Source: Halothermothrix sp. (lineage in GTDB: Bacteria; Bacillota; Halanaerobiia; DY22613). Taken from it: a stretch of 64,000 bases of DNA. Made by a program: the position numbers and the translations under genes. Positions 3,627-47,318 of the stretch are shown here, piece by piece (positions within the stretch are counted from its first letter, which is position 1; each line of letters begins with the position of its first letter). The DNA is taken from positions 248,001-312,000 of the forward strand of contig JAENYK010000001.1 in the NCBI GenBank assembly GCA_016841825.1, written 5' to 3'. The notes under the pieces were generated by a model. It worked only from the letters and a program-made list of their open reading frames with translations, was not told the DNA's origin and ran no database searches.

Positions 3627-3746
3627 AATCTCCCCGACCTCCATAACACGTATTTTGAATATGTTTTTAATCCCCATACCCATCTTTCATAGTTCTACTT
3701 TATGGTGAGAAAATCCTTTATCTGAATTTTGCGAGAATACATCTAG

Positions 3747-28086: not shown

Positions 28087-28148
28087 TGGTTTTCTCCTTT
28101 CCTTATGCGAATACACTTTCCAGATACGATTTCACACTCTGTACAAAG

Positions 28149-28238: not shown

Positions 28239-28838
28239 TTAAGCAAAAAGTAGTACTGGCGGAATATTGAGTATCAGCCATAACAAAATAGTATATCCAA
28301 TAGCCCATCCCTGTTTGACCTCCACTTTCTTATGGAAATAATAATAGAGTATAATCGAAGACCATAAGGAAAAAAGACTTATTCTACTACCAAGATCACT
28401 CAAAATAGGCTTTGAAAATATGTCCATTAACACTTTTACGTTTAATTCTAACACTCCCGGTAAGCCTGTTTTACTAATTAGTGCAGTCCAGACGATACCC
28501 AATATAATCGGCAAATATATCCAGACACTATATCCAAAAATATCTGCAAAGTTTTCTTGAGACTTATATAATCTGACTACAATCCAGATAACTATCGCCA
28601 TCAACAGGACGCTGCTGAACATAACAATATTCAGCATCACTCCCTGAATAACAACCAATACACCAGATAAAGTCTCGGTCATCTCCAGATCATTATAATC
28701 TTGCGGCAGAATTAGAATACTTAAAAAAGTACAGAAAACAACTAAACTGATCCCTATCCAAATATTTAACTGCAAATTTTGCCCAAAATACTTCTTAGGT
28801 TTACTCAAAAATAACCCCATATTTTTTAATGAACTCAT
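28239..28838 (-). CDS. Yip1-like integral membrane protein (second)
   Basis: 199 aa, five hydrophobic helices after a short N-terminal region (FLSKPKKYFGQN) typical of bacterial YIP1-domain proteins. It resembles the Yip1-like protein at the other end of the cluster (45602-46240) in layout: an FxxxPxxxF start and five helices. Its start overlaps the preceding gene's stop, so it is translationally coupled. A role as membrane anchor or in immunity is a guess. Confidence 0.7.
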   Translation of the reverse strand: MSSLKNMGLFLSKPKKYFGQNLQLNIWIGISLVVFCTFLSILILPQDYNDLEMTETLSGVLVVIQGVMLNIVMFSSVLLMAIVIWIVVRLYKSQENFADIFGYSVWIYLPIILGIVWTALISKTGLPGVLELNVKVLMDIFSKPILSDLGSRISLFSLWSSIILYYYFHKKVEVKQGWAIGYTILLWLILNIPPVLLFA

Positions 28839-31763: not shown

Positions 31764-31779
31764 AGTCAATGCCTCCCGT

Positions 31780-33120
31780 TCAATATTTGGAAAAAAGAAT
31801 TTGTCTCTGGAGACAACGTTCTTCGTTTGGTGCTCCATACCAGTCTCCATGAATCGGAAGTGCCCAGGCCCGGCAGCTGGCATCACATAGTTGGTTGTAT
31901 TGACAATCTCTACATTTCTCAATCTGATCTATCTCCAGATGGCGAATTTTCTGTAGTAATTCACCGTTTTGCCAGATATCAGTAAAAGACCGCTGACGAA
32001 TATTGCCATCAACATAACCCATACCGTCATAGAGCCTCCAACAGGGGGTAGTAGTTCCATCAGCCAGAATAACAACCGTACTCAAACAGCTATTACAAGC
32101 TTTCTTAACCGAAACTGGATTAATCAACTCACCTAAGATACTGGTATGAAATACACTACCAATGGCAACCTTCTGCGGCTCTGGAGATGAAGCCAGACTG
32201 GTGTAATAAGAGATAAACTCAATCTGTTCATCCATAGATAAAGCTACATCATCCCAGTTTTCTTTAGCTCGTCCCATTTTGCGAACATAGTCATAGGCGA
32301 ACTCATAGACACCCAATTCCTGTGCTAACTCGTACAATTTCCGGTATTCGTGAAAGTTCACTCGGGAAATTACCGAATTAATGCACACAGGCAAACCCGC
32401 TGCAACCATCTGTTTGATTTTGGGAATTAATCTGGCAAACTTACCTTTTCCCCTATATTTATCATGAATTTCTGCTGTTGCCCCATCCATACTAATCTTT
32501 AAAGATGCCAGAGCACACTTTTGCAGTCTCTCTATAGCTTCTTCGTCCACCAGAGAACCATTTGTGCATAAGCTTACTAACATACCTTTACTATTGGCAT
32601 ATTCAACCAGATCCAGAAAATCCGGACGTAAAAATGGTTCCCCACCAGTTAACGTAATATGTAATGGCTTAAATTTAGCAAGTTCATCCATCAAAGCCAT
32701 TATCTCTTCAGTCGTCATCTCATCCTCAGTAACAGACTCGGAATTTGGAAAGCAGTGAATACATTTAAAATTACATCGATTAGTCACCCGCATACTTACC
32801 AATTCGATATTTGGTTCTAACTGTTCAGGAGCAACCGGTTTACCCGTTGACTGGTCAAAAGTGATCCAATCTTTTTGTAATAACAGATTAAAAAAATCCT
32901 GACAGTCATTTAAGATAACATCAAAATCTGCTGCAAACTCTTCACTAGCTTTCTGGGCTATATCAGAAATTGAATGTTTGCCGTCAACATAACTTATAAA
33001 ATAAGTCCCGGTTTCATTTAACTTCATGCGGCCAGGAAAATCATAAATGTCATATAAAAGTGATCCATAAGGCTTTTTTTTCCAGAATATATTACTTTTC
33101 ATGAATACTCTCTCACACAT
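31780..33120 (-). CDS. SPASM-domain radical SAM protein (third)
   Basis: 446 aa from the ATG 33118-33120, preceded by GGAAGGTG. N-terminal PqqD-like domain (LNETGTYFISYVDGKHSISD), then Cys116/120/123 (TNRCNFKCIHC), LTGGEPFLRP, and SPASM ligands ACNSCLSTVVILADGTTTPC, CRDCQYNQLCDASCRAW. The frame stays open 44 codons upstream to an ATG that overlaps the MacB stop, and that stretch encodes a precursor-leader-like VEVSDEKF; see the separate entry. Either the enzyme carries a fused leader or two starts are used. Confidence 0.88.
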   Translation of the reverse strand: MCERVFMKSNIFWKKKPYGSLLYDIYDFPGRMKLNETGTYFISYVDGKHSISDIAQKASEEFAADFDVILNDCQDFFNLLLQKDWITFDQSTGKPVAPEQLEPNIELVSMRVTNRCNFKCIHCFPNSESVTEDEMTTEEIMALMDELAKFKPLHITLTGGEPFLRPDFLDLVEYANSKGMLVSLCTNGSLVDEEAIERLQKCALASLKISMDGATAEIHDKYRGKGKFARLIPKIKQMVAAGLPVCINSVISRVNFHEYRKLYELAQELGVYEFAYDYVRKMGRAKENWDDVALSMDEQIEFISYYTSLASSPEPQKVAIGSVFHTSILGELINPVSVKKACNSCLSTVVILADGTTTPCWRLYDGMGYVDGNIRQRSFTDIWQNGELLQKIRHLEIDQIEKCRDCQYNQLCDASCRAWALPIHGDWYGAPNEERCLQRQILFSKY

Positions 33121-33252
33121 CTTTTCACCTTCCCACTTCCTTGTAAAATAGCATACATTGTAATATAATAAGATTGCAGAATAAAAGATCTGAATAGTGA
33201 ACTTCTCATCACTAACCTCTACAAACAGATCCTTTGTTCTGCTTTTATTCAT
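33121..33252 (-). other. In-frame leader-like segment ahead of the third SPASM gene
   Basis: An ATG at 33250-33252 overlaps the MacB stop (ATGAATAA) and opens a frame reading MNKSRTKDLFVEVSDEKF, then a hydrophobic stretch (IFYSAILLYYNVCYF) and directly into the SPASM enzyme without a stop. The motif VSDEKF is the conserved leader core of the four precursor peptides, and 25 bp (33200-33224) are identical to 46368-46392. It is either a fused leader peptide or a decayed precursor gene. Confidence 0.6.
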
Positions 33253-34429
33253 AATTCAATGACTCAATTGGGTCTAATTGTTGAGCCTTCCAGGCGGGAT
33301 ACAGTCCAGAAATAACTCCAATTCCGACTGCAAATCCCAATGAGATGGCAATTGTCTCCCAGGTGATCTTTGATTGAATCGGACTCAACTGATTAACTAT
33401 AGTTGAACCAAGATAACCTAACCCTATCCCCAAACATCCCCCGGTCAGACAGAGTACAATCGCTTCAATAATAAACTGAGCCAGAATATAGTTCTTCTTA
33501 GCTCCTAATGCTTTTCGTATTCCAATCTCCCGGGTTCTTTCAGTTACAGTAACCAACATAATATTCATAATACCAATTCCACCAACTACCAGAGAGATAC
33601 TGCCAATAGCTCCTAACAAAGCTGTAAGCACAGTTGTCAGCATTTTGATATTATCCTGAAGTTCAGTGATCGGTGTAACCAAAAACGGAATGTAGTTATA
33701 TTTTAGATTGAATAGTTTTTTCAGCTGATTTTGCACCTGAACTGTTTTGATCTGAGGGTTATGCTGCAGTAGGACCATCTCATTTTCATAATTACCTGTT
33801 TGAACACGATAGATAGTATCCGGGATATATATCTTCTGATCCCCAGTAAACCCCATATTCAAATCATTCTGTTTAGCCAACACTCCAATAATCTTAAACT
33901 TTACTTCCCCCAATTGAACCTCTCTACCGACCACATCTTCTTCTGTCTGCAAAATATCTTCTTTAACCTTCTGACCGATGACACAGACCGGAATCTGACT
34001 AGATTCTTCTAAAGAAGTAAAGAATCGTCCCGATTCAAATTTGAGATGAACAACTTTAGTAAAATTATAAGTTGTACCCAGGACGTAAGTATAGACACTC
34101 TCTGTTCTGTATTTGACCAGAGTCTGCCACCAATTTATTGGCACAATCTCCCTGATGTCCTGTGACCCTTTCTCAATCAGCATCAAATCACTCTGACTAA
34201 ACCAGCGGGGAACTCTGTTTTTGTTGGTAATGTCTGCTTCAATAATCAATGTATTCATTGACGTACTTGAGAACTCATCTAAGAGCATTGATCTGGCACC
34301 AGAACCCAGAGAGATCATGAGCATCACCGAAGCTACTCCAACCAAAATCCCAAACAGGGCTAACAGATTGCGAAATTTGCTAGTCAACAAACTTTCCAGA
34401 CTAATCTGCATTACATCCAAAAAATGCAC
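33245..34429 (-). CDS. MacB-type ABC permease (no ATPase domain)
   Basis: 394 aa with a GTG start eight bases after GGGGGG. One N-terminal helix (LLALFGILVGVASVMLMISLG), a large extracytoplasmic MacB core domain (residues ~50-260) and three C-terminal helices with TERTREIGIRKALGAKK. MacB-type permeases act mechanically with an adaptor rather than as channels. The adaptor gene is directly upstream (5-bp gap) and the nearest ATPase is two genes further on; they may together export the modified peptide. Confidence 0.88.
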   Translation of the reverse strand: MHFLDVMQISLESLLTSKFRNLLALFGILVGVASVMLMISLGSGARSMLLDEFSSTSMNTLIIEADITNKNRVPRWFSQSDLMLIEKGSQDIREIVPINWWQTLVKYRTESVYTYVLGTTYNFTKVVHLKFESGRFFTSLEESSQIPVCVIGQKVKEDILQTEEDVVGREVQLGEVKFKIIGVLAKQNDLNMGFTGDQKIYIPDTIYRVQTGNYENEMVLLQHNPQIKTVQVQNQLKKLFNLKYNYIPFLVTPITELQDNIKMLTTVLTALLGAIGSISLVVGGIGIMNIMLVTVTERTREIGIRKALGAKKNYILAQFIIEAIVLCLTGGCLGIGLGYLGSTIVNQLSPIQSKITWETIAISLGFAVGIGVISGLYPAWKAQQLDPIESLNYE

Positions 34430-34434
34430 TTGAA

Positions 34435-35685
34435 TTACCCCCCAGACCGTCTAAGATGTTCTAAATATTCATAGGGACCGACAACCACTCTATCTCCAGG
34501 ATGTATTCCCCGAATGATCTCTATATCTCCATGCTGAATAATTCCTGTCTGGACAGTCACCCGTTCCACTTTCCCATTCTTCTCAACAAATACATAACGC
34601 ACAGTCTGTTCTCCGGCTTCCTCTTCCATCAGAGCATCAATCGGTAAACAGATAGTCTGTTCTCTGATCTCTTCCTCAATCAACGCCCCAATAGACAAAC
34701 CAGAATATAGATCAGCAGTATTTACAAAGATCACTTCAACTTTAAATCTGGTCAAACCATTTGATATCTGAGGATTTTCATCAATATTATTGACCTCACC
34801 CCAGATTTCGATTGACTGATCAAATTCTGGTCTAAGTAAGACCGATTGACCTTTTTTAATATAGGAGATGTCAAACTCGTTTATCCAGATCTCTGCCACT
34901 TTATAAATTGGATCAGAAAGGAAAGCAAGCTGACTGCCAGAATTCACCCACTGCCCCTCTTCTACCAACAGATCTTTTAGAATCCCCTGTCGTTCGACTA
35001 CGACCGTCAGATTTTTTAGTTCTTCCTGTAATCGAAGCAACTCCTCCTGAAGTTTACTGTTGGACAGCTCTGCCAGAGCGATTCGCTCATCCTGCACTGC
35101 CAGATCAATCTCAGTATTTGCAATACTCAAAGTAATGATCTCTAAATCGCGTTGATGGTTGTTAATCTCAACAAGCAGATCTTCAACCTCTTGCCCCGCA
35201 GCATCTCCTAACTCATAAATCTGCTGTACTAACTTATACTTCTCTTCCAACCTCTGTATTGTATTCAGCAGATCTTCTCTTTGGATCAACTGTTCTTTTT
35301 TCTGTAAGTTAAGCTTGGATACCTGATATTTTAGCAGTTCCAACTCTCTAGAATCGATTTTAAGTTGATATTCCTGATCTTTTAATTGGTTTCGTTTTTG
35401 AACATTCTCCAATTGAAGAATTGGTTGATCTGCCTGAAGATGATCTTTAACTTCAACATAGATCTCTTTCACCAGACCATCAATTCTACTATAGATAGTT
35501 TGAGCTTTATAATCCTGGACTTTACCAGCACCTTCAATCTCAACCATCAATGGTTGTAATTCGACAACCTGAATTATCCCATCACCTAATACCTGTTCTA
35601 CTCCTGCCCTGGACAGAAAACCAATCCAGATCCATAGCCCTACCAGGGATAATGCTCCAATAATCATCCAACTCTTTTTCTTCAT
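34435..35685 (-). CDS. HlyD/MacA-type adaptor (membrane fusion protein)
   Basis: 416 aa from ATG at 35683-35685. N-terminal anchor helix (IIGALSLVGLWIWIGFLS), lipoyl half-motifs split by a long coiled coil (about residues 95-225, heptad-rich LKDQEYQLKID and LVQQIYELGDA), and a C-terminal beta barrel with GLTRFKVEVIF. Adaptors of this kind link MacB-like permeases to export in Gram-negatives and function as extracellular domains in Firmicutes. It pairs with the MacB-type permease downstream. Confidence 0.87.
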   Translation of the reverse strand: MKKKSWMIIGALSLVGLWIWIGFLSRAGVEQVLGDGIIQVVELQPLMVEIEGAGKVQDYKAQTIYSRIDGLVKEIYVEVKDHLQADQPILQLENVQKRNQLKDQEYQLKIDSRELELLKYQVSKLNLQKKEQLIQREDLLNTIQRLEEKYKLVQQIYELGDAAGQEVEDLLVEINNHQRDLEIITLSIANTEIDLAVQDERIALAELSNSKLQEELLRLQEELKNLTVVVERQGILKDLLVEEGQWVNSGSQLAFLSDPIYKVAEIWINEFDISYIKKGQSVLLRPEFDQSIEIWGEVNNIDENPQISNGLTRFKVEVIFVNTADLYSGLSIGALIEEEIREQTICLPIDALMEEEAGEQTVRYVFVEKNGKVERVTVQTGIIQHGDIEIIRGIHPGDRVVVGPYEYLEHLRRSGG

Positions 35686-35701
35686 CAACCTTACCCCTTA
35701 T

Positions 35702-36721
35702 TTAGTCATTATAACTATTTTTTAAAACCATACTGGCTATTGTCAGCATAAGGATATTGAAGACAACGATATAGACGAAACTTATCCATCCTGGCCATTG
35801 ACCATTAAGTGCCCCACTCAACATATCTTTAGCATAGGAGGAAGGTAAGACAGCCTTGATAATTTTTAAAACTCCTCCCCCATCGGGAATCATTGCAAAA
35901 AAAGCCAGCGGCATCATCACAATTATGCTGTAGCTGGTCGCTTCCTGCAAATTCTTACACAATCCAGAGATTATCAGACCCAGACCGGCAAAAGCAAAGG
36001 TGATTAACACCGTATAGATCAACGAGACGATAATACTCGATATTTCAGTCACGATTCCCAACAAGATTCCCATAGATACAGTCATGATCACTGAGAACAG
36101 AGTCATCAGTGTGACAAAGATTATCTTTCCTAAGATAATCTGATGATAACCAACGGGCGTTGTTAAGAGATAATCCAGTGTCTGCTTATCTTTCTCGGCA
36201 CTGATCATCGTCACTGAATGAGATACTGCGATAAAGATAATTGCAAAGACCAGAATACCTGCCAGATAATTGAGACTGTCAGTCTCAATACTGATCCCCT
36301 GGATGTCAAATTCAATTCCATCACCAACATGTTGTTCATATATTGCATTCTGCAATATACTCAGGGCAATCTTCCCCATAGATTGATTCTCAACATAATA
36401 CACCTGGATATCTCCGGCAGAATTTTGGGGAAGAGATACCGCAATTGGGGCATCTCCACCATCAACAAGGTTTTTAGCCTGTTCAAAGTTCTCAACTCTT
36501 CTAATCTGGATCATCTCTTCACTGATTTCGACAGTTCTCTGTAGTATCGCCTCATCTTGCTCAACATCTTCAGGGATGATCATCGTTAAGCTAAACTGCT
36601 CAGTGAACATAAAACCCATAACGATTGTTACCACTATCGGCAAAACGATCAAGATTAAGAGAACCCAATTTCGCAAGCCCTGTAAGATCTCTTTATTCAA
36701 AATTACAAAAATTTTTTTCAT
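35702..36721 (-). CDS. ABC-2 type permease (NatB-like)
   Basis: 339 aa. One N-terminal helix, an extracytoplasmic domain (residues ~45-160) and five further helices. SAEKDKQTLDYLLTTPVGYHQIILGK is the ABC-2 loop. It lies one base after the ATPase gene stop and so is its partner. Together with MacB and the adaptor there are two permease types and one ATPase in this sub-block. Confidence 0.86.
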   Translation of the reverse strand: MKKIFVILNKEILQGLRNWVLLILIVLPIVVTIVMGFMFTEQFSLTMIIPEDVEQDEAILQRTVEISEEMIQIRRVENFEQAKNLVDGGDAPIAVSLPQNSAGDIQVYYVENQSMGKIALSILQNAIYEQHVGDGIEFDIQGISIETDSLNYLAGILVFAIIFIAVSHSVTMISAEKDKQTLDYLLTTPVGYHQIILGKIIFVTLMTLFSVIMTVSMGILLGIVTEISSIIVSLIYTVLITFAFAGLGLIISGLCKNLQEATSYSIIVMMPLAFFAMIPDGGGVLKIIKAVLPSSYAKDMLSGALNGQWPGWISFVYIVVFNILMLTIASMVLKNSYND

Positions 36722-36722
36722 C

Positions 36723-37643
36723 TCAATCCCTCAACTCTCTTCCAGTTAATTGGATGAAAATATCTTCCAAACTTAACTGAGCCTGTTGAATTTTTGTAAT
36801 AACTAAACCATTACCCATCCCATCACCTAGACAATACAGAAATTTTTGTAACTGTTTAACATAAAAAATGCCTCTGTTCTCCTCCTGACTCTGTAAAACA
36901 GCCACCTCAGCGGGTACAAATTTGAGCAGTTCAGCTAAAGCAAATGATTCTATCTCAAACTTTAAACTATCCGAGTATTGGGTATGTAAGTTCTGATAAC
37001 TGTCATACGCACAGAGTTCACCATGATCAATAATCGCAACTGTATCTACAACTTTCTCCACCTCCGCTATGTTGTGAGAGGTTAACAATACTGTAGTACC
37101 CTGTCTTTTTAGATCCAGGATTAGATCACGAATTAGTACCGTCGATTGAGGATCAAGCCCAGTGGTTGGTTCGTCTAAGATCAAAATTTGTGGATTGGGT
37201 AATAAAGCGCGGGCGATACCTAATCTTTGCTTCATCCCTTTGGAGAAATTTCTTACCAGTTTATTTTGATCGACCAGATTAAATAGCCCTAACAATTCCT
37301 TAATTCTGCTTTTAGCCTCTCTGGTTGGCAGATTGTAGAGGTTAGCAGCAAAACTCATATTCTCCATCGCTGTCAGATCTTCATAAACTGTATCACTGTC
37401 GAAGACTACGCTCATCAGGGACTTTACTTTCGCCAAATCTGTAGAAATGTCCATTCCATTAATCTTAATCTGGCCGGCAGTGGGGTTTAACAAGCCGCAG
37501 ATAATTCGTAAAATTGTTGTTTTGCCAGCACCGTTAGGGCCTAAAAGGGAAAAAATCTCGCCTTTTTTGATCTCAAAACTAATATCATTGACGGCTACCA
37601 GATCTGCATACTCTTTTCTTAAACCTTCTACTTTGATCATCAT
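36723..37643 (-). CDS. ABC transporter ATP-binding protein of the cluster
   Basis: 306 aa from ATG at 37641-37643 (AAGGAG five bases upstream). Walker A GPNGAGKTT, signature FSKGMKQRLGIARALLP, Walker B ILILDEPTTGLDP and TSHNIAEVEK are intact. It follows a cobalamin-type radical SAM gene by 13 bp. It probably energises the adjacent ABC-2 permease, and could also serve the MacB permease, which has no ATPase of its own. Confidence 0.92.
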   Translation of the reverse strand: MMIKVEGLRKEYADLVAVNDISFEIKKGEIFSLLGPNGAGKTTILRIICGLLNPTAGQIKINGMDISTDLAKVKSLMSVVFDSDTVYEDLTAMENMSFAANLYNLPTREAKSRIKELLGLFNLVDQNKLVRNFSKGMKQRLGIARALLPNPQILILDEPTTGLDPQSTVLIRDLILDLKRQGTTVLLTSHNIAEVEKVVDTVAIIDHGELCAYDSYQNLHTQYSDSLKFEIESFALAELLKFVPAEVAVLQSQEENRGIFYVKQLQKFLYCLGDGMGNGLVITKIQQAQLSLEDIFIQLTGRELRD

Positions 37644-37656
37644 ATCAACTCCTTTC

Positions 37657-38985
37657 TTATAGTTTAGCAATCATTTGAGCATCATAAAATAAATTTTGAA
37701 TTACATCTGAATTTAAATATCTCGTTGAAATTACCGGATTGGTAAAGTTATATTGATCCCAATCTCTTGTCAGAAAGCGAATCCCCAGATCTTCAGCATG
37801 TTGATAGAAATAAGTTCCGGGAAGTGGTGTAAAGATTGCAAATACTAACCTGATATGATTATCCCGTTCATCAATCTGGATACTCTTTAAAGCTCTCCCT
37901 AGATTCAATGTATGTAAAATATCTTCCTGATTATCATCGGGTAGTCCAATAATCATCGAACAGATTACATTTAATCCTACCTCATATGCTTGACGAACAG
38001 CATTCTTTACTTCTGAAGTACTGATACCTTTATCAATTTTCTCCAACATGGCATCACTTCCACTCTCCACCCCAAATTGAATGGAGTAACACCCGGACTC
38101 TTTCATCAGACTCAAAATCTCTGAGTCCACTGTATTAACCCGTCCCTCACATTGCCAGACAATATCTAAACCCCGCTCTTTTAGTCCATAACAGAACTCT
38201 TTAACCCGCTTTTTAGAATAAGTAAAGGTATCGTCAGCAATAAAAAATTGATCCCGATTGAAGTTCTTGTGCAATAATTCAATCTCATCGAGTACCTTGA
38301 CCAATGAGCGTTGACGATATCGTTTACCAGAGTACACGTTGGCAGAACAAAATCTACAGTTAAATGGACAACCTCTACCGGTTACGATATTCATCACTCC
38401 ATTGACTTGATCGTACTGCTCTAAATTTAGCAGATCATAGGCAGGAAAGGCAAGCTGATCTAAGTCAGTAATAAACTCCCGCTGTTCTGTATGGACTATC
38501 TCACCATCTTTTAAAAAACTAATTCCTCTGATCTGATCCAATCTTTGAACAGACCGACCAAGATAATGTTCAGTTATTTCAGCAAAAGTCAATTCACCTT
38601 CATGTCGACAAACTATATCAACAAACCCTGTCTGCAATGTTTCTGTAGGAAGAAAGGTTGGTTGTGGCCCACCCATAATTACAATAATCGCAGAATCAAC
38701 CTCTTTTGTAATCTGGGCCACACGAATTCCATTGCGATAATTGTTCACTGTACTGGTAATTCCTACAAGCTTCGGTTTTACCTGAGCCAGGTATTCTTTT
38801 AAATCCTTCCCTTTCATTCCCCGCATTCCAAGATCGAGAATCTCCACAGAATATTTATCCCGAACCATTGTCGCCAGATACCCTAATCCTATTGGAGGTA
38901 AACAGTTGTGTAATGCATTATACTTTTTATCGGCAAAGGCTGCACTAGGTGGACTAATCAAGACTATATCAGGCTTTGATTCCAT
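37657..38985 (-). CDS. Cobalamin-binding-type radical SAM enzyme A
   Basis: 442 aa. N-terminal B12-binding Rossmann domain (residues ~1-150; PPIGLGYLA, MGGPQPTF) without the DxHxxG histidine, then a radical SAM core with Cys206-X3-Cys210-X2-Cys213 (GRGCPFNCRFC), FIADDTFTY, and the class-B motif FTPLPGTYFY. The family performs C-methylations and other chemistry on unactivated carbons. The C terminus (LGIRFLTRDWDQYNFTNPVI) is shared with enzymes B, C and E. It is one of five paralogues here; the peptide is the likely substrate (inference). Confidence 0.88.
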   Translation of the reverse strand: MESKPDIVLISPPSAAFADKKYNALHNCLPPIGLGYLATMVRDKYSVEILDLGMRGMKGKDLKEYLAQVKPKLVGITSTVNNYRNGIRVAQITKEVDSAIIVIMGGPQPTFLPTETLQTGFVDIVCRHEGELTFAEITEHYLGRSVQRLDQIRGISFLKDGEIVHTEQREFITDLDQLAFPAYDLLNLEQYDQVNGVMNIVTGRGCPFNCRFCSANVYSGKRYRQRSLVKVLDEIELLHKNFNRDQFFIADDTFTYSKKRVKEFCYGLKERGLDIVWQCEGRVNTVDSEILSLMKESGCYSIQFGVESGSDAMLEKIDKGISTSEVKNAVRQAYEVGLNVICSMIIGLPDDNQEDILHTLNLGRALKSIQIDERDNHIRLVFAIFTPLPGTYFYQHAEDLGIRFLTRDWDQYNFTNPVISTRYLNSDVIQNLFYDAQMIAKL

Positions 38986-38997: not shown

Positions 38998-39369
38998 TTA
39001 AAACCACTGATCTTTTGGATATAAATGTTTATAGAGCCGACAATACCACTGGTTGATCTTAAATCCCAGACTCCGTCGATTGTGAACAACCATTCGCTTT
39101 TTCATGATCTGATAAAACTGCTCCAAATCATGATAGAGGGCTGTTTTATCATCTAATTGATACTCTTCTTTCATACATTCGATAATTTCCGAAAAACTTT
39201 TATCTTCTTTCATTAGTTCTAAAAGATAGACCGAAGTGTCATTCAATTCCACATATGAATAAAGCAATCTATCTTTTAACAGAATAACTCCATCCTCTTC
39301 TACCACAGAAATCCCCTGACCTATTACCGGAACCATATTCTTTCCTTTTTTTTCAATGCTCTTATTCAT
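38998..39369 (-). CDS. PqqD-like leader-binding protein (first)
   Basis: About 123 aa if it begins at the ATG 39367-39369, which overlaps the upstream stop as ATGAATAA; a later ATG at 39335 with GGAAAG upstream is an alternative. VVEEDGVILLKDRLLYSYVELN, LMKEDKSFSEIIECMKEEY and the winged-helix pattern resemble PqqD/RRE domains that bind RiPP leaders. The extra C-terminal ~25 basic/aromatic residues are unusual. It sits between two cobalamin-type enzymes and may deliver the precursor to them. Confidence 0.72.
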   Translation of the reverse strand: MNKSIEKKGKNMVPVIGQGISVVEEDGVILLKDRLLYSYVELNDTSVYLLELMKEDKSFSEIIECMKEEYQLDDKTALYHDLEQFYQIMKKRMVVHNRRSLGFKINQWYCRLYKHLYPKDQWF

Positions 39370-40708
39370 CCAGTTCATCCCTCCAACATCGGTAAGACTC
39401 TACCAGAAAATTGGTTAATTGAGCACGCTTTAAATGTCGAGTCTCAATAACTGGCTGCAAGAAATTATACTGATTCCAATCCTTTGTCAAAAATTTAATA
39501 CCCAACTCTTCAGCATGTTCATAAATATATGTTCCCGGTAACGGAGTACAGATCGCAAAAGCAGTCTGGATTTTGGAAGTAGCTGAACCTTCACGCAGAC
39601 TATGGAGACTCTGAGCAAATTTAATCGTATTATTGACCATCTCCTCAGTCTCCATCGGTAGTCCAATTATAAAAGAACATTTAACATCCAGTTGGGCATG
39701 ATGGGCATCCAGAACTGCCTGACGCACCTGATCTAAACTAATCTCTTTTTTGATCTCTTTCAAAATTTCAGGATTGGCTGACTCTACCCCAAATTGTACC
39801 CCGACACAGCCTGCTGCTTTCATGGTAGTCATTAGATCATAATTCACAGTATTAACCCTGGCCTCACATTTCCATTTAATTTTCAGGCCAAGTTGAATAA
39901 TCCTTTCACAAAAATCCCTTACTCTATCCTCATAAAAAGTAAACGTATCATCCAGTATCATAAATCGCTGCACATTTTTTTCATGAATCAGATATTCAAT
40001 CTCTCCGATAACATCTTCGATGGGCCGTACCCGATATTTCCGTCCACTCAATGCATGAGCCACGCAAAAAATACAGCCATATGGGCAACCTCTTCCGGTA
40101 ATAATTGGAGCAATATTGTTATATTTATTATAATCAAAGATATGATGCACAGGTGAACCCAGATCCTTTACATCAGTAAAACCTTTACGCTTCTCTGTGC
40201 GAATAATCTGTTCATTTTTCAGATAGGCGATCCCTTTAATCGCTGATAGATCTCTCTGGTTGGCCTGAAAAACTTTCATTAACTCGATAATCGTCTCTTC
40301 TCCTTCATTAATGCAGACTATATCAATATATCCAGAACGTAAAGCATCTTCCGGAATAAAACTTACGTGAGGCCCTCCCATAATTACTTTAGTCTGCGGA
40401 AGAACCTGTTTAACGATTTGGGCTACCAATAAACCGTTATTATAGTTATTCACCAGAGCGGTAATCCCTACTATTTGGGGAGTAGTTGTCTGCAGAAGAT
40501 CTATTAATTCCTGCTTTCCCATCCCCTCAGTAGCCATGTCAATGATATCAAAAGAATAATTATGTAACATCAAAGATTTTGCTACATAACTTAATCCAAC
40601 AGGTGGTAAACTATTATGCGTTCCAGAAACCAATTCTTCAAATACAACAGATGGTGGACTAATGAGAAGAATATCCGGTTGAATAACATTCATCTTCTCT
40701 ACTTCCAT
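39362..40708 (-). CDS. Cobalamin-binding-type radical SAM enzyme B
   Basis: 448 aa; the ATG at 40706-40708 overlaps the preceding PqqD-like gene's stop (TAATG). B12 domain with PPVGLSYVA and MGGPHVSF but no DxHxxG. Cluster Cys208/212/215 (GRGCPYGCIFC), FMILDDTFTF, and CTPLPGTYIY. The C-terminal LGIKFLTKDWNQYNFLQPVI matches enzymes A, C and E. It has Cys residues VGVQFGVES near the core, as in the other members. Role inferred as for A. Confidence 0.87.
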   Translation of the reverse strand: MEVEKMNVIQPDILLISPPSVVFEELVSGTHNSLPPVGLSYVAKSLMLHNYSFDIIDMATEGMGKQELIDLLQTTTPQIVGITALVNNYNNGLLVAQIVKQVLPQTKVIMGGPHVSFIPEDALRSGYIDIVCINEGEETIIELMKVFQANQRDLSAIKGIAYLKNEQIIRTEKRKGFTDVKDLGSPVHHIFDYNKYNNIAPIITGRGCPYGCIFCVAHALSGRKYRVRPIEDVIGEIEYLIHEKNVQRFMILDDTFTFYEDRVRDFCERIIQLGLKIKWKCEARVNTVNYDLMTTMKAAGCVGVQFGVESANPEILKEIKKEISLDQVRQAVLDAHHAQLDVKCSFIIGLPMETEEMVNNTIKFAQSLHSLREGSATSKIQTAFAICTPLPGTYIYEHAEELGIKFLTKDWNQYNFLQPVIETRHLKRAQLTNFLVESYRCWRDELDE

Positions 40709-41046
40709 TAGAATGGAGCCCAATCTTTGATTATTAGCCCCATATCCTCCATATTATCCAGAAATGCTTCCAGATCTTGAGTAACCTGTTCAGTCTCAAC
40801 ATCATATTCTTCTACAATCCGCTTAACCATATCTTCAATTGTATTTCCACCATCACATAACTCCCAAAAGATAACACCGATACCCTGGATTCGAATGACA
40901 TTACCTTCAACAGTGAACTCTCCACTATCATTGGCAGATCCATTACTCAGATAGACAACAACAGACTTATCCTCACTCTCAATATTCTCATATTTCCAGA
41001 GAACTACTTTTTTCTTTGGTGTATAAGCTAAATATGCACTATCCAT
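40708..41046 (-). CDS. PqqD-like leader-binding protein (second)
   Basis: 112 aa with AAGGAG before the ATG. The C-terminal half (GIGVIFWELCDGGNTIEDM, VKRIVEEYDVETEQV, DLEAFLDNMEDMGLI) has the PqqD winged-helix signature, including the W/F-x-L-x-D-G turn. The first ~45 residues are a separate beta-rich region (TVEGNVIRIQ). It is coupled to enzyme B by a stop/start overlap and lies seven bases after the protease gene, forming a leader-binding, protease and modifying-enzyme block. Confidence 0.75.
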   Translation of the reverse strand: MDSAYLAYTPKKKVVLWKYENIESEDKSVVVYLSNGSANDSGEFTVEGNVIRIQGIGVIFWELCDGGNTIEDMVKRIVEEYDVETEQVTQDLEAFLDNMEDMGLIIKDWAPF

Positions 41047-41053: not shown

Positions 41054-41689
41054 TCACTCCTTATCTCTTTTGCTTTGCATCAGATATCCTAGCATCTCAA
41101 GAACACAAAACGCCAGTAGTCTTATTCGTTTTCCTAAACCGATCTGATAAGCTTTGGAGATCTGTCTGATCCGACGCCCATCTCCCCCTGCTATCAAAGT
41201 ATATAGATTAAATATCAAAAAAATCACCAAACCCACATTGATCACCAGATCACAGTGATACAATATACTAATTGTTAGCGTGATAAACAAAAGAATTGAC
41301 ACCCCGACCGGTCCAGCATACAAAATCTTAATTATTTCATTAACATCCATATTTTGATCGGCGAATAAGATCCGCATTTTAAATTGAACCGGCAGCATCA
41401 CCACCTGATATGAGTCTCCTTTCAACAGAGCATACCATTCTAACAGGTGACAGAACTCATGGACCACTATAGAAAGAATAGGAATTAAAATTATAACAAT
41501 TGCAGAATTCAAAGTGAACCATCCCAGACTAACGGTTCCTTCCACAGCCCAATTGAGTCCAACAGACAATAGTGTCAAAAAAAGTAAAGGGATAATCATA
41601 TATTTAGTCGATATTTTTAAAAGTCGTAAAAAACTGATCCCCGGTTTTTCATTTCTTGTATATTCCCAGACAACTCCCCGCAAGTACAT
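41054..41689 (-). CDS. HEFCH-motif membrane metalloprotease (M50/DUF3267-like)
   Basis: 211 aa from the ATG at 41687-41689, overlapping enzyme C's stop (TGATG). Four or five helices; HEFCH at residues 77-81 sits at the end of the second helix (IPILSIVVHEFCHLLEWYA), as in membrane-embedded zinc proteases. The third ligand is not certain; an NPDG motif is absent, but AGPVGVSILLF follows a hydrophobic domain. It is the only obvious protease in the cluster and may remove the leader during export (inference). Confidence 0.72.
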   Translation of the reverse strand: MYLRGVVWEYTRNEKPGISFLRLLKISTKYMIIPLLFLTLLSVGLNWAVEGTVSLGWFTLNSAIVIILIPILSIVVHEFCHLLEWYALLKGDSYQVVMLPVQFKMRILFADQNMDVNEIIKILYAGPVGVSILLFITLTISILYHCDLVINVGLVIFLIFNLYTLIAGGDGRRIRQISKAYQIGLGKRIRLLAFCVLEMLGYLMQSKRDKE

Positions 41690-42999
41690 CACTGATCACC
41701 TACCATTTCCCGGACAGGTGCATTAGCTGCAAAAAATAACTCACGTAAATCGTCCTGAGTAAAGTGTTCAGTATTAATAACCGGTTCCATAAATGTATAT
41801 CGATCCCAGTCTTTAGTCAGAATTTCAATCCCGAAATCCTCTGCACGGTCATAGAACTCAGTGCCCGGTAAAGGTGTAAGAATGGAAAAATAGATCGTAA
41901 TATCTGCTTCTGTCGGTGATTGCTTTAATTCGCGTAATTGGTGAATCAAATCAAAAGTCCTATGCAGACTTTCTTCAGTATCTTCCGGAAGCCCCAAAAT
42001 AAATGAGCAGGTCAACTGCATTCCAATATCATGAATCCGTCTTGCTGCATCCAGGATCAACTCAAGAGAGATTCCTTTACCAATATTTTTCAGTACCTTC
42101 TCATCTCCAGATTCTATACCCAACAATATTCCTTTACAGCCAGCCCGGTACATAAGTTCCAGGCTATTCTGAGGAACACAATCAACCCTGGTTCCACATC
42201 CCCAGATCAGACCGTAATTCCGCTCGATTAAACCTGAACAGATCTCCTGGGTTCTTTTCTGATTATAAACAAAAGTATCATCAGCAAAATATACCCGTTT
42301 AATCTGAAATTTATTATATAATTCATCAATCTCTGCTAAAACATTTTTCGCAGAACGAGCCCGAAATTTACGTCCACATAATGAACTGGACGCACAAAAC
42401 TTACAGACAAACGGACAACCCCGTCCCGTAATAATCGTTCCAGATTCCTGATATAAAGAGATATCCATTAATTCTCTGGCTGGAAAAGGAACCTGGTCTA
42501 ATTCTTTAATCATCGAACGCTTTTTGGTAAAGATCAAATCATTTCCTTTCCGGAAAACTATCCCCGCTATATCTTCAAGTTTTTCCGGATTTCCCGCAAA
42601 TCTATGACGAACTAGTTCGAGAAAAGTATATTCACCTTCTCCCAGAACAATTACATCAATCTCCTTAACCTGAGTTAGAGTCTCTTCAGCCAGAAAGGTC
42701 ACATGCGGTCCTCCCATGGCCACCATAGCTTCCCCGCCTAAAACTTCTTTCACAATTCGGGCAACCTTACATCCACTCTTATGAACATTAACCAGAGATG
42801 AGATGCCCACAATCTTTGGTCTATTCTCCTCAAGGATCTGTATAAGCTCATTTTTTTTCATCTTAGTCGCTGCCATATCAATAATCTTTACAGAATACCT
42901 ATCTTTGACCATTCCGGCCAAATAACCTAATCCCAGAGGAGGGACTTGACTTCTTTCAGCTCCAACAATGGGAGGCAAAATAAGTAGAATATCAAGCAT
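41689..42999 (-). CDS. Cobalamin-binding-type radical SAM enzyme C
   Basis: 436 aa. B12 domain (PPLGLGYLA, MGGPHVTF) without DxHxxG, cluster Cys195/199/202 (GRGCPFVCKFC), FADDTFVYNQ, LTPLPGTEFY and a C-terminal LGIEILTKDWDRYTFMEPV-like segment (here FGIEILTKDWDRYTF). It is most similar to enzyme E: the two share FPARELMDISLY-like and ESGTIITGRGC-like stretches. GGGGGAAG precedes the ATG. Role inferred as peptide C-alkylation or related. Confidence 0.88.
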   Translation of the reverse strand: MLDILLILPPIVGAERSQVPPLGLGYLAGMVKDRYSVKIIDMAATKMKKNELIQILEENRPKIVGISSLVNVHKSGCKVARIVKEVLGGEAMVAMGGPHVTFLAEETLTQVKEIDVIVLGEGEYTFLELVRHRFAGNPEKLEDIAGIVFRKGNDLIFTKKRSMIKELDQVPFPARELMDISLYQESGTIITGRGCPFVCKFCASSSLCGRKFRARSAKNVLAEIDELYNKFQIKRVYFADDTFVYNQKRTQEICSGLIERNYGLIWGCGTRVDCVPQNSLELMYRAGCKGILLGIESGDEKVLKNIGKGISLELILDAARRIHDIGMQLTCSFILGLPEDTEESLHRTFDLIHQLRELKQSPTEADITIYFSILTPLPGTEFYDRAEDFGIEILTKDWDRYTFMEPVINTEHFTQDDLRELFFAANAPVREMVGDQ

Positions 43000-43011: not shown

Positions 43012-44289
43012 TTAAACCTGTGATAATTCAATCATCGCATTTATATAAGCTTCACGAATCTCATTAGCATTTAAGTTTTTGGTATTAAAGATTGGATTAT
43101 TAGGACTAAAATCATCATAAGTTTTTGCCAGAATTTCTATTCCGTATTCATCTTTCTGCATCAAAAACGGTGTTCCCGGATATGGGGTAACAACATTAAA
43201 AAATACATCACTGCCATAATCTTTTTTCAAAGAGATAGCCAGATCGATCGACTCCCGCAGCGTCTTTTTAGTATCACAATGATGTCCTAACATAATTGTA
43301 CAGATCGGTTTGATTCCAGCTTTACTGGTCATTTGCACAGTATTTCTGACCTGTTCTAGAGTAATATTCTTCCGTATCAGATTCAAAACTTCCTGTGAAC
43401 CAGCCTCCACGCCAAACTCAATTCCCGCACATCCACTTTCCTTCATAGCCTGTAACATCTCTTCATCCAGAGTATCTACTCTGGATTCACACCACCAGCT
43501 AACTCCCGGAAGACTATCTTTGAGCCGACAGCAGAGTTCCAATAAACGCCGTCGATTTGAGGTCAATGTGCTGTCCTGAAATGCTAAAAACCGATTATTT
43601 TCATCAAAAGGCAGAGTTTTTAACTCAGCCATAATATTTTCAATTGATCTTTCACGATATCTCCCTTTATTTATAACCCTGGATACACAAAAAACACACC
43701 GTCCTGGGCAACCTCTGGTTGAGACTATACTAAAAGGCACTTGATATCTGGAAAGATCAAAATCTCCTCTCGCGGGAAAAGGTATTTCATTCAGATTATG
43801 AATAACATCCCGTTCAGGAGTCAGGATCACATGCTGGTTTTTTTTAAAACCAATTCCCTGAATATCTGGCAAACTCCCCTGACCTTCTAAAAAATAATTT
43901 GCCAATTCAACAATAGTTTTCTCCCCTTCACCGCGCACAACAATATCAACCTCATCATATTCAAGACATTCTTCTACAGTAAACGTCGGGTGAATCCCCC
44001 CTAGCAGTGTGACAATGTTCGGGTGGGATGCCCTGATAATTCGCAATATTCTGATTGTATTATTGAAATTTTCGGTAGCAGTAGACACTCCAATGATTTT
44101 CGGTTTCTCTGCTGTAATAACTTCTGTGATGTATTCCCTTAAACCTTTACCACAAGCTGATAGATCATATGCTTTGGCACTAAATCCTGCATCTCTTAAG
44201 ACCGCAATCAGATAAGCAATCCCCAGAGGTGGAGTCAGAGGTCTTTTCTCAAAATCAGATGGTGCTTGCAGCAGTATAATCTCAGACAT
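43012..44289 (-). CDS. Cobalamin-binding-type radical SAM enzyme D (divergent)
   Basis: 425 aa. B12 domain (PPLGIAYLIAV, LGGIHPTFTVEE), cluster Cys194/198/201 (TRGCPGRCVFC), LAFQDSTLTSNRRR in place of the ADDTF-Y pattern of A, B, C and E, and VTPYPGTPFL rather than TPLPGT. It also lacks the WDQYNF-like tail, ending with KTYDDFSPNNPIFN. It is therefore the most diverged of the five and probably has a distinct chemistry. It lies 12 bp downstream of enzyme C in the same direction. Confidence 0.86.
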   Translation of the reverse strand: MSEIILLQAPSDFEKRPLTPPLGIAYLIAVLRDAGFSAKAYDLSACGKGLREYITEVITAEKPKIIGVSTATENFNNTIRILRIIRASHPNIVTLLGGIHPTFTVEECLEYDEVDIVVRGEGEKTIVELANYFLEGQGSLPDIQGIGFKKNQHVILTPERDVIHNLNEIPFPARGDFDLSRYQVPFSIVSTRGCPGRCVFCVSRVINKGRYRERSIENIMAELKTLPFDENNRFLAFQDSTLTSNRRRLLELCCRLKDSLPGVSWWCESRVDTLDEEMLQAMKESGCAGIEFGVEAGSQEVLNLIRKNITLEQVRNTVQMTSKAGIKPICTIMLGHHCDTKKTLRESIDLAISLKKDYGSDVFFNVVTPYPGTPFLMQKDEYGIEILAKTYDDFSPNNPIFNTKNLNANEIREAYINAMIELSQV

Positions 44290-44299: not shown

Positions 44300-45586
44300 T
44301 CAACTTACAACCAGTGTTTCAAAGAGATAACCTTTCAACTGTTCTTTTGAAAGATTTCGTGTTTCGATCACTGGTTCTGTGAATTTAAAATTATCCCAGT
44401 TCTGACTGAGGAATTTTATCCCCAATTCTTCAGCATGTTCCCAATAGTATGTTCCAGGTAGTGGTGTCATAATCCCGAAAGTCGTATAGACAGGACACTC
44501 TTCTGTACCTATCTCCCTCAACTTATTGGCAAAACCCAGCGTATCTCTGACAGATTGATCAGTATCTTCAGGAAAACCGATAATAAAATAGCAAGTTACA
44601 ACCAAACTTGCTTCATGAGCCTCTAACACGGACTGCTCCACCATCTCCACGGTAATCCCCTTCGAGATACATTTTAATATCTCATTATTGCCTGACTCTA
44701 CTCCAAATCCAATTTTTCGACATCCAGCTTTTTTCATGTACTGTAAAAGTTCAAAAGGAATAGGTGGGTTAACCCGGGAAGTGCAGCACCATTGAATTGG
44801 TAGATTTTTAGTGATCAGCTTATCACAAAATTCATAAATTCGTTGATGATTTAAGACAAACGTATCATCCAATAAAAAAATCTCTTCCACACCATAGTTT
44901 CGATAAAGTAATTCCATCTCATCAATAACTCGATCAACACTTCTCAACCGATATCTTCCACCACAGAGGTAATTGGCCGCACAGAATTTACAGGTAAAGA
45001 CACAACCCCTTCCGGTAATAATCGAACCGGCTCTCTCATAAGTTGACAGATCGATCAGTTCCCGAGCCGGTAATGGCAGAGCATCAAGGTCTTTAATCAA
45101 TTCCCTCTCCGCAGTAACAGTAATCTGTTCCCCATTCATAAAAGCGATCCCTTTGATCTCTGCAAGGGAGCTGGGGTATTTCTCCAGATAATATTCCACA
45201 AGTTCAGTAAATGTCAGTTCTCCCTCAAAACGAACTACCACGTCAATATATCCTGTTTTCAAGACCTGTTTAACAATACAGGTAGCATGAGATCCACCCA
45301 TAATCACCGGAATTTCGGGATTATGTTCTTTAATAAGCTTTGCCAGACGACATCCGTTGTTATGAATTGTCACTAGAGAACTAATCCCAATAATCTTTGG
45401 GTCTTCCTGTGCCAGATATTCCATAAACCGATCTTTCTTCATCGGAGTGGCTACAAAATCTAAAATCTTAACTGTATATCCTTTCTGCTGAAGACATGCT
45501 GCAATATAGCAGATACCAAGAGGGGGAACTTCATGTCTGGTAAACTCATCGATGGAAGCCGGTATAATCAGTAAAATATCAGTCAT
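44300..45586 (-). CDS. Cobalamin-binding-type radical SAM enzyme E
   Basis: 428 aa; GAGGAGATGG before the ATG. B12 domain (PPLGICYIA, MGGSHATC) without DxHxxG, cluster Cys195/199/202 (GRGCVFTCKFC), LLDDTFVLN, MTPLPGTYYW and LGIKFLSQNWDNFKFTEPVI. It is the first modifying enzyme after the precursors and the Yip1-like protein, so probably the most expressed of the five. Closest to enzyme C. Confidence 0.88.
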   Translation of the reverse strand: MTDILLIIPASIDEFTRHEVPPLGICYIAACLQQKGYTVKILDFVATPMKKDRFMEYLAQEDPKIIGISSLVTIHNNGCRLAKLIKEHNPEIPVIMGGSHATCIVKQVLKTGYIDVVVRFEGELTFTELVEYYLEKYPSSLAEIKGIAFMNGEQITVTAERELIKDLDALPLPARELIDLSTYERAGSIITGRGCVFTCKFCAANYLCGGRYRLRSVDRVIDEMELLYRNYGVEEIFLLDDTFVLNHQRIYEFCDKLITKNLPIQWCCTSRVNPPIPFELLQYMKKAGCRKIGFGVESGNNEILKCISKGITVEMVEQSVLEAHEASLVVTCYFIIGFPEDTDQSVRDTLGFANKLREIGTEECPVYTTFGIMTPLPGTYYWEHAEELGIKFLSQNWDNFKFTEPVIETRNLSKEQLKGYLFETLVVS

Positions 45587-45601: not shown

Positions 45602-46240
45602 TTATTTGGTCAATCGCTGTAACAGCAGGTAATTGTAGCTAATCTGCCAACTTGTAGATAAAATCCAGAAAATAATTGTAATGACCAGTGATTTCTTTAA
45701 CGAAAGGTTTGAAACATTTTTTATTGCAGCAGATGCCATTGCAATATATGCAACAGCGAAAGGAGTAATACTGGCCAGAATCATTCCATGTAATGTAAAT
45801 AATCTCTCTTCCAACGGTAGAAAAGCCTCCAAACCTAAAGGAATCATCTGACCTGTTGGCAATAAAACCAGAGTAGTTAGCAGCATTGCAAACAGACTTG
45901 GTAAGATAAAATACCCCGTCATTGAAAAGATGACTTTGGCCTTTACCTTACTTCCCCCTGCCAACCGAATAAACAGACTGTACACTCCAGTTCTTATAAC
46001 CCAATAAATAAGATTAGTTATAACCAGAATAACCATATTAATTAATTGAGTTGATTCTCCATCGGGTATATCAACATTGAAATAATTTTCCATGACATTT
46101 TGATAAAAATCGCCGTTAGGGATACTTATAAAAGTATATAAAAGGATAAATACTATTGGTAAAATAATGGTAGGATTCTCTTTAAGCTGTCTAAAAAAAA
46201 TTCCTGGTTCGGTGAATAAGTTCAATTGTCTAACTTGCAT
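45602..46240 (-). CDS. Yip1-like integral membrane protein (first)
   Basis: 212 aa, five helices. NLFTEPGIFFRQLKENPTI is the typical short cytoplasmic start of bacterial Yip1-domain proteins; GGGSKVKAKVIFSMTGYFILP-like stretch near residues 93-113 is conserved in the fold. GGAGGAGATT precedes the ATG. It is the first gene after the precursors, and a similar protein lies at the far end of the cluster. Function unknown; membrane docking, export or self-immunity are possibilities. Confidence 0.72.
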   Translation of the reverse strand: MQVRQLNLFTEPGIFFRQLKENPTIILPIVFILLYTFISIPNGDFYQNVMENYFNVDIPDGESTQLINMVILVITNLIYWVIRTGVYSLFIRLAGGSKVKAKVIFSMTGYFILPSLFAMLLTTLVLLPTGQMIPLGLEAFLPLEERLFTLHGMILASITPFAVAYIAMASAAIKNVSNLSLKKSLVITIIFWILSTSWQISYNYLLLQRLTK

Positions 46241-46279
46241 AGAATCTCCTCCTCATAAAGAAGATATTATAAAAAAGAA

Positions 46280-46294
46280 TTAGTGTGGGGCATA
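46280..46294. repeat. 15-bp inverted repeat, distal arm
   Basis: TTAGTGTGGGGCATA here is the exact reverse complement of 47237-47251. The two arms enclose the four precursors and the mini-ORF. The arms could pair in the mRNA or in DNA. Confidence 0.7.
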
Positions 46295-46330: not shown

Positions 46331-46414
46331 TTATCCTGTAAATAACCTATCAACAGGATTTAGATCAAACTTCTCATCACTAACCTCTACAATCAGAGAA
46401 GAATTTCTGCCCAT
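46331..46414 (-). CDS. 27-aa leader-like mini-ORF
   Basis: ATG at 46412-46414 with TAGGG six bases upstream; the peptide starts MGRNSSLIVEVSDEKFDLN and ends PVDRLFTG. It keeps the VSDEKF block of the precursor leader but has no core. 25 bp (46368-46392) are identical to the segment ahead of the third SPASM gene. It is either a truncated precursor or a functional leader decoy. A short hairpin (46333-46359) covers its end. Confidence 0.5.
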   Translation of the reverse strand: MGRNSSLIVEVSDEKFDLNPVDRLFTG

Positions 46415-46435: not shown

Positions 46436-46600
46436 TTACCAGCAATGTTTAGCAATAATTGCACCAGTAGCAGCAGCACCAGTAGTAATCCCAGCACCTG
46501 CCACAATTGCAGTACCTGGCTCAATTTCAGCAGAAGTTCCACTCATTGTAAACTGCTCATCACTAATTTTTACAACAGGAACATTATATTTTTTCTTCAT
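46436..46600 (-). CDS. RiPP precursor peptide 1
   Basis: 54 aa, minus strand; the ATG at 46598-46600 follows the stop of precursor 2 by 16 bases and has only a GGTGG site, so it is probably coupled. Leader MKKKYNVPVVKISDEQF carries a YxxP-type RRE-binding motif. The core region is small-residue rich (TAIVAGAGITTGAAATGAII) and ends AKHCW. It is the most diverged of the four copies (21 or so differences from precursor 3), so it may give a distinct product. Confidence 0.82.
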   Translation of the reverse strand: MKKKYNVPVVKISDEQFTMSGTSAEIEPGTAIVAGAGITTGAAATGAIIAKHCW

Positions 46601-46616
46601 AGTGGCCACCACCCGA

Positions 46617-46781
46617 TTACCAGCAATGCTTAGTAATGACTGCGGTAGTAGCAACACCAGCAGTAGTAATTCCAGCAGCTGCTACAGTTGCAGTACCTGG
46701 CTCAACTTCTGCGGATATCCCATTCATTACAAATTTCTCATCACTTACCTGTACAACAGGTGCAGAATATCTTTTTTTCAT
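46617..46781 (-). CDS. RiPP precursor peptide 2
   Basis: 54 aa; ATG at 46779-46781 with GGAGGAAT seven bases upstream. Leader MKKRYSAPVVQVSDEKFVM, then NGISAEVEPG and a core TATVAAAGITTAGVATTAVI ending TKHCW. It differs from precursors 3 and 4 at nine positions, mostly conservative. The conserved Cys-Trp end and Gly/Ala/Thr/Ile/Val composition suggest the modified segment. Confidence 0.87.
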   Translation of the reverse strand: MKKRYSAPVVQVSDEKFVMNGISAEVEPGTATVAAAGITTAGVATTAVITKHCW

Positions 46782-46834
46782 GGGTATTCCTCCTTTTTTA
46801 TAATCAGCAGACTAATACAGTCGCAAATTACTAA

Positions 46835-46999
46835 TTACCAGCAATGCTTGGCAATAATTGCAGTAGTTGCACCACCTACAGTAGTGATACCGGCTGCTGC
46901 TACAGTCGCAGTAGCTGGTTCAATCTCTGCAGAACTTCCACTCATCACAAATTTCTCATCGCTTACCTGTACAACAGGTGCAGAATATCTTTTTTTCAT
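46835..46999 (-). CDS. RiPP precursor peptide 3
   Basis: 54 aa; ATG at 46997-46999 with GGAGGAAT. Leader MKKRYSAPVVQVSDEKFVM, SGSSAEIEPA, core TATVAAAGITTVGGATTAII, tail AKHCW. Protein identical to precursor 4 with two synonymous base changes, indicating recent duplication or purifying selection. The Y-x-x-P-x-V pattern and DEKF resemble leader motifs bound by PqqD-like domains (compare lasso leaders), by analogy. Confidence 0.88.
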   Translation of the reverse strand: MKKRYSAPVVQVSDEKFVMSGSSAEIEPATATVAAAGITTVGGATTAIIAKHCW

Positions 47000-47046
47000 G
47001 GGTATTCCTCCTTTCAGTGTCAAATTGTCCTCTAGCTTAGTGTTAA

Positions 47047-47211
47047 CTACCAGCAATGCTTGGCAATAATTGCGGTAGTTGCACCACCTACAGTAGTGAT
47101 ACCGGCTGCTGCTACAGTTGCAGTAGCTGGTTCAATCTCTGCAGAACTTCCACTCATCACAAATTTCTCATCGCTTACCTGTACAACAGGTGCAGAATAT
47201 CTTTTTTTCAT
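47047..47211 (-). CDS. RiPP precursor peptide 4 (promoter-proximal)
   Basis: 54 aa, TAG stop, ATG at 47209-47211 with GAGGAGGAAT. The amino acid sequence equals precursor 3. It is first in the transcript, 192 nt after the predicted promoter -10. The four copies repeat every ~180-218 bp. No signal peptide is visible, so export needs the dedicated ABC machinery. Confidence 0.88.
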   Translation of the reverse strand: MKKRYSAPVVQVSDEKFVMSGSSAEIEPATATVAAAGITTVGGATTAIIAKHCW

Positions 47212-47236: not shown

Positions 47237-47251
47237 TATGCCCCACACTAA
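47237..47251. repeat. 15-bp inverted repeat, proximal arm
   Basis: TATGCCCCACACTAA, exact complement of the arm at 46280-46294. It lies in the untranslated leader 26 bp ahead of the first precursor. Confidence 0.7.
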
Positions 47252-47318
47252 ACCTTAAAACCTAAAATTGTTCAACCATTAGTTAAAATTACAATAGAAT
47301 TTCATAATCATAACCTAA

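Follow-up and report, generated by a model that had tools for sequence, protein, structure and literature searches.

The 64,000-nucleotide stretch of Halothermothrix sp. DNA that we analyzed (the window) contains four tandem genes for short peptides followed by a run of radical SAM enzymes, and we read the region, with a probability of about 0.55, as a locus for RiPP biosynthesis whose family matched none described. The precursor would consist of a leader, an uncharged stretch and a KHCW end, and would be modified by radical SAM enzymes, cleaved and exported. As judged from sequence, the array is a real set of RiPP precursors and apparently represents an undescribed, sparse family. The features of the locus are given in Table 1.

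Table 1. Features of the precursor locus, ordered from the first-transcribed end (positions in the window).
Feature	Position	Strand	Basis or remark
5' arm of long-range inverted repeat, TTAGTGTGGGGCATA in transcript	47237-47256	.	25 nt upstream of p4 ATG
Precursor p4, 54 aa MKKRYSAPVVQVSDEKFVMSGSSAEIEPATATVAAAGITTVGGATTAIIAKHCW, transcribed first	47047-47211	-	ORF, GGAGG 7 nt upstream, repeat family D1
Precursor p3, same protein as p4	46835-46999	-	ORF
Precursor p2, 54 aa, 8 residue differences vs p4	46617-46781	-	ORF
Precursor p1, 54 aa (not 73), 15 residue differences vs p4	46436-46600	-	ORF
Degenerate fifth copy, 27-codon ORF, leader motif VEVSDEKF, without core or KHCW tail	46331-46414	-	repeat D2, blastn self match
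3' arm of long-range inverted repeat, TATGCCCCACACTAA in transcript	46275-46294	.	39 nt upstream of Yip1 start
Yip1/YknW-like membrane protein	45602-46240	-	Pfam Yip1 5e-14; NCBIfam YknW below cut-off
B12-binding radical SAM enzyme	44300-45586	-	Pfam/NCBIfam scans
B12-binding radical SAM enzyme	43012-44289	-	Pfam/NCBIfam scans
B12-binding radical SAM enzyme	41689-42999	-	Pfam/NCBIfam scans
M50/site-2-protease-like membrane metallopeptidase (HEFCH ... GGDG)	41054-41692	-	motif, predicted fold
Discrete PqqD-like RiPP recognition element	40708-41046	-	Pfam PqqD 1.7e-15
B12-binding radical SAM enzyme	39362-40723	-	Pfam/NCBIfam scans
Second PqqD-like protein	38998-39378	-	Pfam PqqD 1.8e-8
B12-binding radical SAM enzyme	37657-38985	-	NCBIfam matches below equivalog cut-offs; paralogue alignment
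ABC transporter ATPase	36723-37670	-	ORF reading; homologous genes in L012, L013, L015
ABC-2 type permease	35702-36721	-	weak NCBIfam matches
HlyD/MacA/YknX-like adaptor	34435-35688	-	domain scans
MacB/YknZ-like permease	33245-34429	-	domain scans
Sixth copy, relic leader fragment in frame just upstream of SPASM gene 31780	33199-33229	-	blastn self match
SPASM radical SAM enzyme with fused PqqD domain	31780-33252	-	Pfam Radical_SAM, SPASM, PqqD
SPASM radical SAM enzyme	30426-31922	-	Pfam/NCBIfam scans
Fused MFS/spermidine-synthase-like protein	28835-30412	-	domain scans
Second Yip1/YknW-like protein	28239-28838	-	domain scans
Third SPASM radical SAM enzyme	26755-28116	-	Pfam/NCBIfam scans

The four tandem precursor ORFs that an earlier note on this DNA had reported at 46436-47211 are present. 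They lie on the minus strand, with start-to-start spacings of 181, 218 and 212 bp (a period of 180-218 bp had been given) and KHCW at the C-terminal end of all four, and p3 and p4 encode the same protein. The two synonymous bases said to separate p3 from p4 were found, and the stop codon differs as well (TAA/TAG). From ATG all four genes, and not only the second and fourth, have 54 codons; p1 and p3 become 73 aa long only when read from GTG/TTG codons further upstream. A Shine-Dalgarno-like site precedes each precursor (GGAGG for p2-p4, GGTGG for p1). The D1 repeats that make up the array are 184 nt long and 71-98% identical. Values of dS and dN were 0.51 and 0.07 between p4 and p2, and 0.89 and 0.16 between p4 and p1. 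The repeats and the mostly synonymous change between copies place the array beyond chance, and dN, being mostly far below dS, indicates that the frames are coding, in line with translation under constraint. These values give no evidence of the diversification proposed earlier; only in the p1/p2 core was dN about equal to dS (0.23 vs 0.22, at few sites). Divergence mainly in the core did not hold for p1 (8/28 leader vs 7/22 core residues against p4) and was weak for p2 (3/28 vs 5/22). It is plausible that the duplicate copies serve dose, since two copies would yield one product and the Chloroflexota relative described below also has two near-identical tandem copies. A promoter scan did not rise above shuffles, and no Rfam elements were found within 24000-50500 of the window.

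Related cassettes were found by a scan with a B12-radical-SAM alignment; the precursor-based search gave nothing close. B12-radical-SAM cassettes were present in MAGs of Pelotomaculum (contig L012), Eubacterium (L013), Anaerocolumna (L015) and Thermoflexales, a Chloroflexota (L011). The precursors of the first three end in ...AIAGAVYNKHCPW (tail KHCPW; Pelotomaculum, 1209-1361), ...VAAAALAKWC (Eubacterium, 8669-8851) and ...GTIYTKHCW (Anaerocolumna, 3463-3651), and in each case precursor, peptidase, PqqD, B12-radical-SAM and SPASM genes lie on one contig. The Eubacterium MAG has a single B12-radical-SAM and a single SPASM enzyme. A profile built with these three precursors picked out a tandem pair on the Chloroflexota contig L093 (E 2e-5, before the pair entered the profile). 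The two are nearly identical, end in KNCAW and are followed by the peptidase and a PqqD-like ORF; the B12-radical-SAM genes of this MAG are on the separate contig L011. Of the 40-80-aa ORFs in the 79 scan loci (6,630 in total), a K.C.?W ending occurs in only two, the Pelotomaculum and Anaerocolumna precursors. The designation as precursor genes is well supported by the constraint between copies, by the same-strand radical-SAM, PqqD, M50 and exporter genes, and by these four distant relatives that share the three-part peptide, three of which adjoin the same enzyme set. In Pelotomaculum, Yip1 and HlyD domains are fused in one protein (L012, 14472-16601), a parallel to the YknW- and YknX-like proteins that individual genes encode in the window cluster. 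The Anaerocolumna precursor is directly preceded by a LanC-like protein and a C39-peptidase ABC exporter (L015, 110-3362), and a lanthipeptide-type cluster may adjoin the precursor there.

Direct search of the genome contigs revealed no close precursor relatives. The profile detected no relative among 61 relatives, 59 class-mates and 300 phylum-mates, and no further convincing member in genomes around the known members (295 and 156 for Anaerocolumna and Eubacterium, 113 for Pelotomaculum, 301 Chloroflexota); across all these sets the only other match was broken and stop-containing (7e-4). For the SPASM protein, neither 349 phylum genomes nor plasmids yielded a close orthologue. As recovered by these searches, the precursor family is either sparse or too divergent for the profile to reach.

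In all seven distinct precursors, YxxPx[V/F/A/I] lies close to the N-terminus. An uncharged middle of 21-30 residues follows, with an A/G/S/T/V/I content of 75-96%, and after it come Lys and the tail, which across the family reads K-H-C-W, K-H-C-P-W, K-N-C-A-W or K-W-C. Between the two phyla nothing but the tail and YxxP is invariant, and the sequence that separates them diverges freely. The leaders all fit [Y/W]xxPx[L/V/I/A/F/Y], the motif bound by discrete recognition elements (RREs) of lasso peptides and also reported for PQQ leaders (PMC13381572), and a discrete PqqD-like RRE is encoded in the locus, as in RRE-dependent RiPPs. This match suggests that the N-terminal YxxPx[V] motif is most likely the recognition end. 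The invariant Cys and Trp had been proposed earlier as the modification or recognition end; the tail is indeed conserved across phyla, and the invariant Lys and Cys with the nearby Trp are better read as a modification or release end. Structure prediction gave a helix-prone middle in a low-confidence model and nothing further usable. No NCBIfam or Pfam model matched the precursors above cut-off, and no description of a KHCW tail was found among open-access papers. A likeness of TVGG to TvgA (PMC9062424) was dropped, as TVGG occurs in p3/p4 only.

Downstream of the array, the same-strand run encodes five B12-radical-SAM enzymes, three SPASM enzymes, two PqqD proteins, the membrane peptidase and transporters, so that an encoded precursor with a leader stands beside modifying enzymes, as is general for RiPPs. 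Among the NCBIfam families listed, no equivalog was reached at cut-off by the B12-radical-SAM and SPASM proteins. In peptidase homologues of five clusters, HExxH and the distal DG were invariant (5/5), and one relative matched Pfam M50 just below cut-off. The best PDB matches of the window peptidase model were the site-2 proteases 3b4r and SpoIVFB, which are weak matches (E 0.06, TM about 0.4). The MFS/spermidine-synthase-like protein lies inside the cluster, and it could conceivably act on the peptide as an aminopropyl- or methyltransferase. PADLOC matches (viperin-like, PDC-M51A, mads_2) were attributed to general similarity within superfamilies, and the plasmid matches of the B12-radical-SAM gene 44300, about 30% identical, were regarded as generic relatives.

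We propose that the YxxPxV leader would bind the discrete PqqD-type recognition elements, which would pass the precursor to the B12-radical-SAM enzymes for probable C-methylation of unactivated Val/Thr/Ile/Ala carbons. The SPASM enzymes would probably carry out epimerization, or form a cross-link via the invariant Lys, Cys or Trp. The M50/site-2-protease-like peptidase would then cleave the membrane-associated precursor, and the YknWXYZ/ABC-type pumps would export the hydrophobic product, protect the producer, or both. Duplicate copies would raise precursor supply, with p1 and p2 giving close congeners.

A different division of the peptide has a smaller but real chance of being correct: only the C-terminal K-x-C-(x)-W would go into the product, the Ala-rich stretch would be a membrane-spanning presenter, and the M50 protease would clip off the modified tail. 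Since the middle diverges freely and the last residues are invariant, a small tail product fits at least as well as a large core, and the length, lack of charge and predicted helix of the middle, followed by Lys, agree with it. Mycofactocin and PQQ are small products made from a precursor, and for two of the SPASM proteins the highest-scoring model is that of the mycofactocin maturase, although its cut-off is not reached. The M50 proteases TglG and TmoG remove C-terminal residues from the scaffold peptides of pearlins (PMC10885120). However, the hydropathy of the middle is moderate (KD 1.2-1.9), and no lanthipeptide-dehydratase-like (LanB-like) peptide aminoacyl-tRNA ligase, or PEARL, was recognized among the cluster proteins scanned, a subset of the ORFs. 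Eight radical SAM enzymes also seem many for four residues, and a large modified core comprising the whole hydrophobic half is therefore modestly favored over a tail-only product, although the pattern of conservation speaks for the tail.

The array is enclosed by an inverted repeat of 20 nt, 15 bp of it exact, which has no other genomic copy at 0-1 mismatches and was matched by no shuffle. A 14-bp inverted pair surrounds the Eubacterium precursor (8632-8645/8888-8901) and an 11-bp pair the Anaerocolumna precursor (3406-3416/3720-3730), the latter weaker alone and reached in 24/1,000 shuffles. Flanks of 160 nt for the window and 120 nt for the other loci were tested, and pairs of at least 11 bp were found at 3/4 precursor loci vs 0/60 control genes, a post hoc comparison made after the repeat had been noticed and not pre-planned. 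The Pelotomaculum and Chloroflexota (L093) loci have local hairpins after the precursor instead of a bracketing pair. In L093 (1000-1900), the two precursor genes lie within longer repeats, each then followed by a GTCGGCCTG/CAGGCCGAC hairpin. The stems predicted in silico for the window, Eubacterium and Anaerocolumna have mean pairing probabilities of 0.97-0.99, and the bracketing repeat is likely a long-range mRNA stem that could protect or separate the precursor mRNA. DNA inversion is possible and less likely than such a stem. We regard it as very unlikely that the array is switched on and off as an invertible or mobile DNA cassette with the repeat at its borders, which would in itself be compatible with a RiPP. 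Perfect 15-bp repeats that exactly bracket the array and are absent elsewhere would suit a cassette, but no recombinase was noticed among the window ORFs, no target-site duplication was seen, and the arms of the three clusters are unrelated in sequence, as would be expected sooner of a conserved RNA stem than of a site for a recombinase.

The degenerate fifth copy sits downstream of p1, and a 30-bp leader piece at 33200-33229 is 97% identical to the precursor leader. The piece lies in the in-frame upstream part of the ORF of SPASM gene 31780, the first-transcribed of the three SPASM genes (26755, 30426, 31780); the true start of this gene is probably at about 33120, and a precursor may once have adjoined it. 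These two relic leader copies indicate that the array has turned over. It is nevertheless barely credible that the four ORFs belong to a family in decay, or that they encode small structural peptides with no relation to the neighboring enzymes: dN/dS is well below 1 in most comparisons, ribosome sites are present, and distant genomes have this type of peptide together with the same enzymes.

A more far-reaching reading combines several of these points and is, taken whole, improbable: an undescribed RiPP family of Bacillota-type bacteria and Chloroflexota in which up to eight radical SAM enzymes act on one short precursor, intramembrane proteolysis releases a product centered on the K-x-C-(x)-W tail, and a long-range mRNA stem, with arms that keep their pairing and not their sequence, separates the precursor message from that of the enzymes. 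The precursor signature defined here, a leader with YxxPx[V], a stretch that is uncharged and rich in Ala, and a K-x-C-(x)-W end, escapes the family models searched, and an unusually large number of B12 and SPASM radical SAM enzymes accompanies it. Relatives of the Eubacterium type, with one enzyme of each kind, would offer a simple entry to the chemistry, enzyme by enzyme. The bracketing repeats suggest a route by which RiPP operons could make precursor in excess over enzymes.

Sactipeptides and ranthipeptides have a Cys thioether to a backbone or side-chain carbon; the tail here has a single Cys, and the maturases fall below the cut-offs of all families listed. Streptide, darobactin and other Lys-Trp cross-linked RiPPs share with this locus a SPASM enzyme and a Lys 2-4 residues from Trp, but they differ from it in the extra invariant Cys, the tail position and the B12-radical-SAM enzymes found here. 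Polytheonamide-type proteusins are modified by the B12-radical-SAM enzymes PoyB and PoyC and the epimerase PoyD. The present locus resembles them in combining B12-radical-SAM enzymes with an Ala/Val/Thr/Gly-rich hydrophobic sequence, whereas Pfam and NCBIfam revealed no nitrile-hydratase/Nif11 leader in the 54-aa precursors, which have a short YxxP leader and a separate PqqD instead. Mycofactocin and PQQ loci resemble the present one in the PqqD-type RRE and the SPASM enzyme, mycofactocin also in a conserved C-terminus of the precursor, and PQQ also in a YxxP-like leader motif; in contrast, many B12-radical-SAM enzymes are present here, and the SPASM proteins scored 183, 177 and 133 bits against the maturase (MftC) cut-off of 265.

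Pearlins (TglA, TmoA) likewise combine an M50 protease of the membrane with product formation at the C-terminal end (PMC10885120), whereas the tail here is genetically encoded. In the epipeptide operons of EpeX/YydF (epeXEPAB, yydFGHIJ), a small precursor, a radical SAM maturase, an M50 membrane peptidase and an ABC transporter are combined as in this locus (PMC12871923, PMC10885120), and the radical-SAM-modified EpeX is acted on by the M50 enzyme EpeP (PMC10885120, PMC12871923). An M50-type membrane peptidase beside radical SAM enzymes was recognized here by motif and fold, with similarity below the Pfam gathering threshold, and the precursors reached no epipeptide precursor model. No B12-radical-SAM enzyme or discrete PqqD is described for EpeX/YydF, and the precursors here differ further in their Ala-rich stretch and K-x-C-(x)-W tail.
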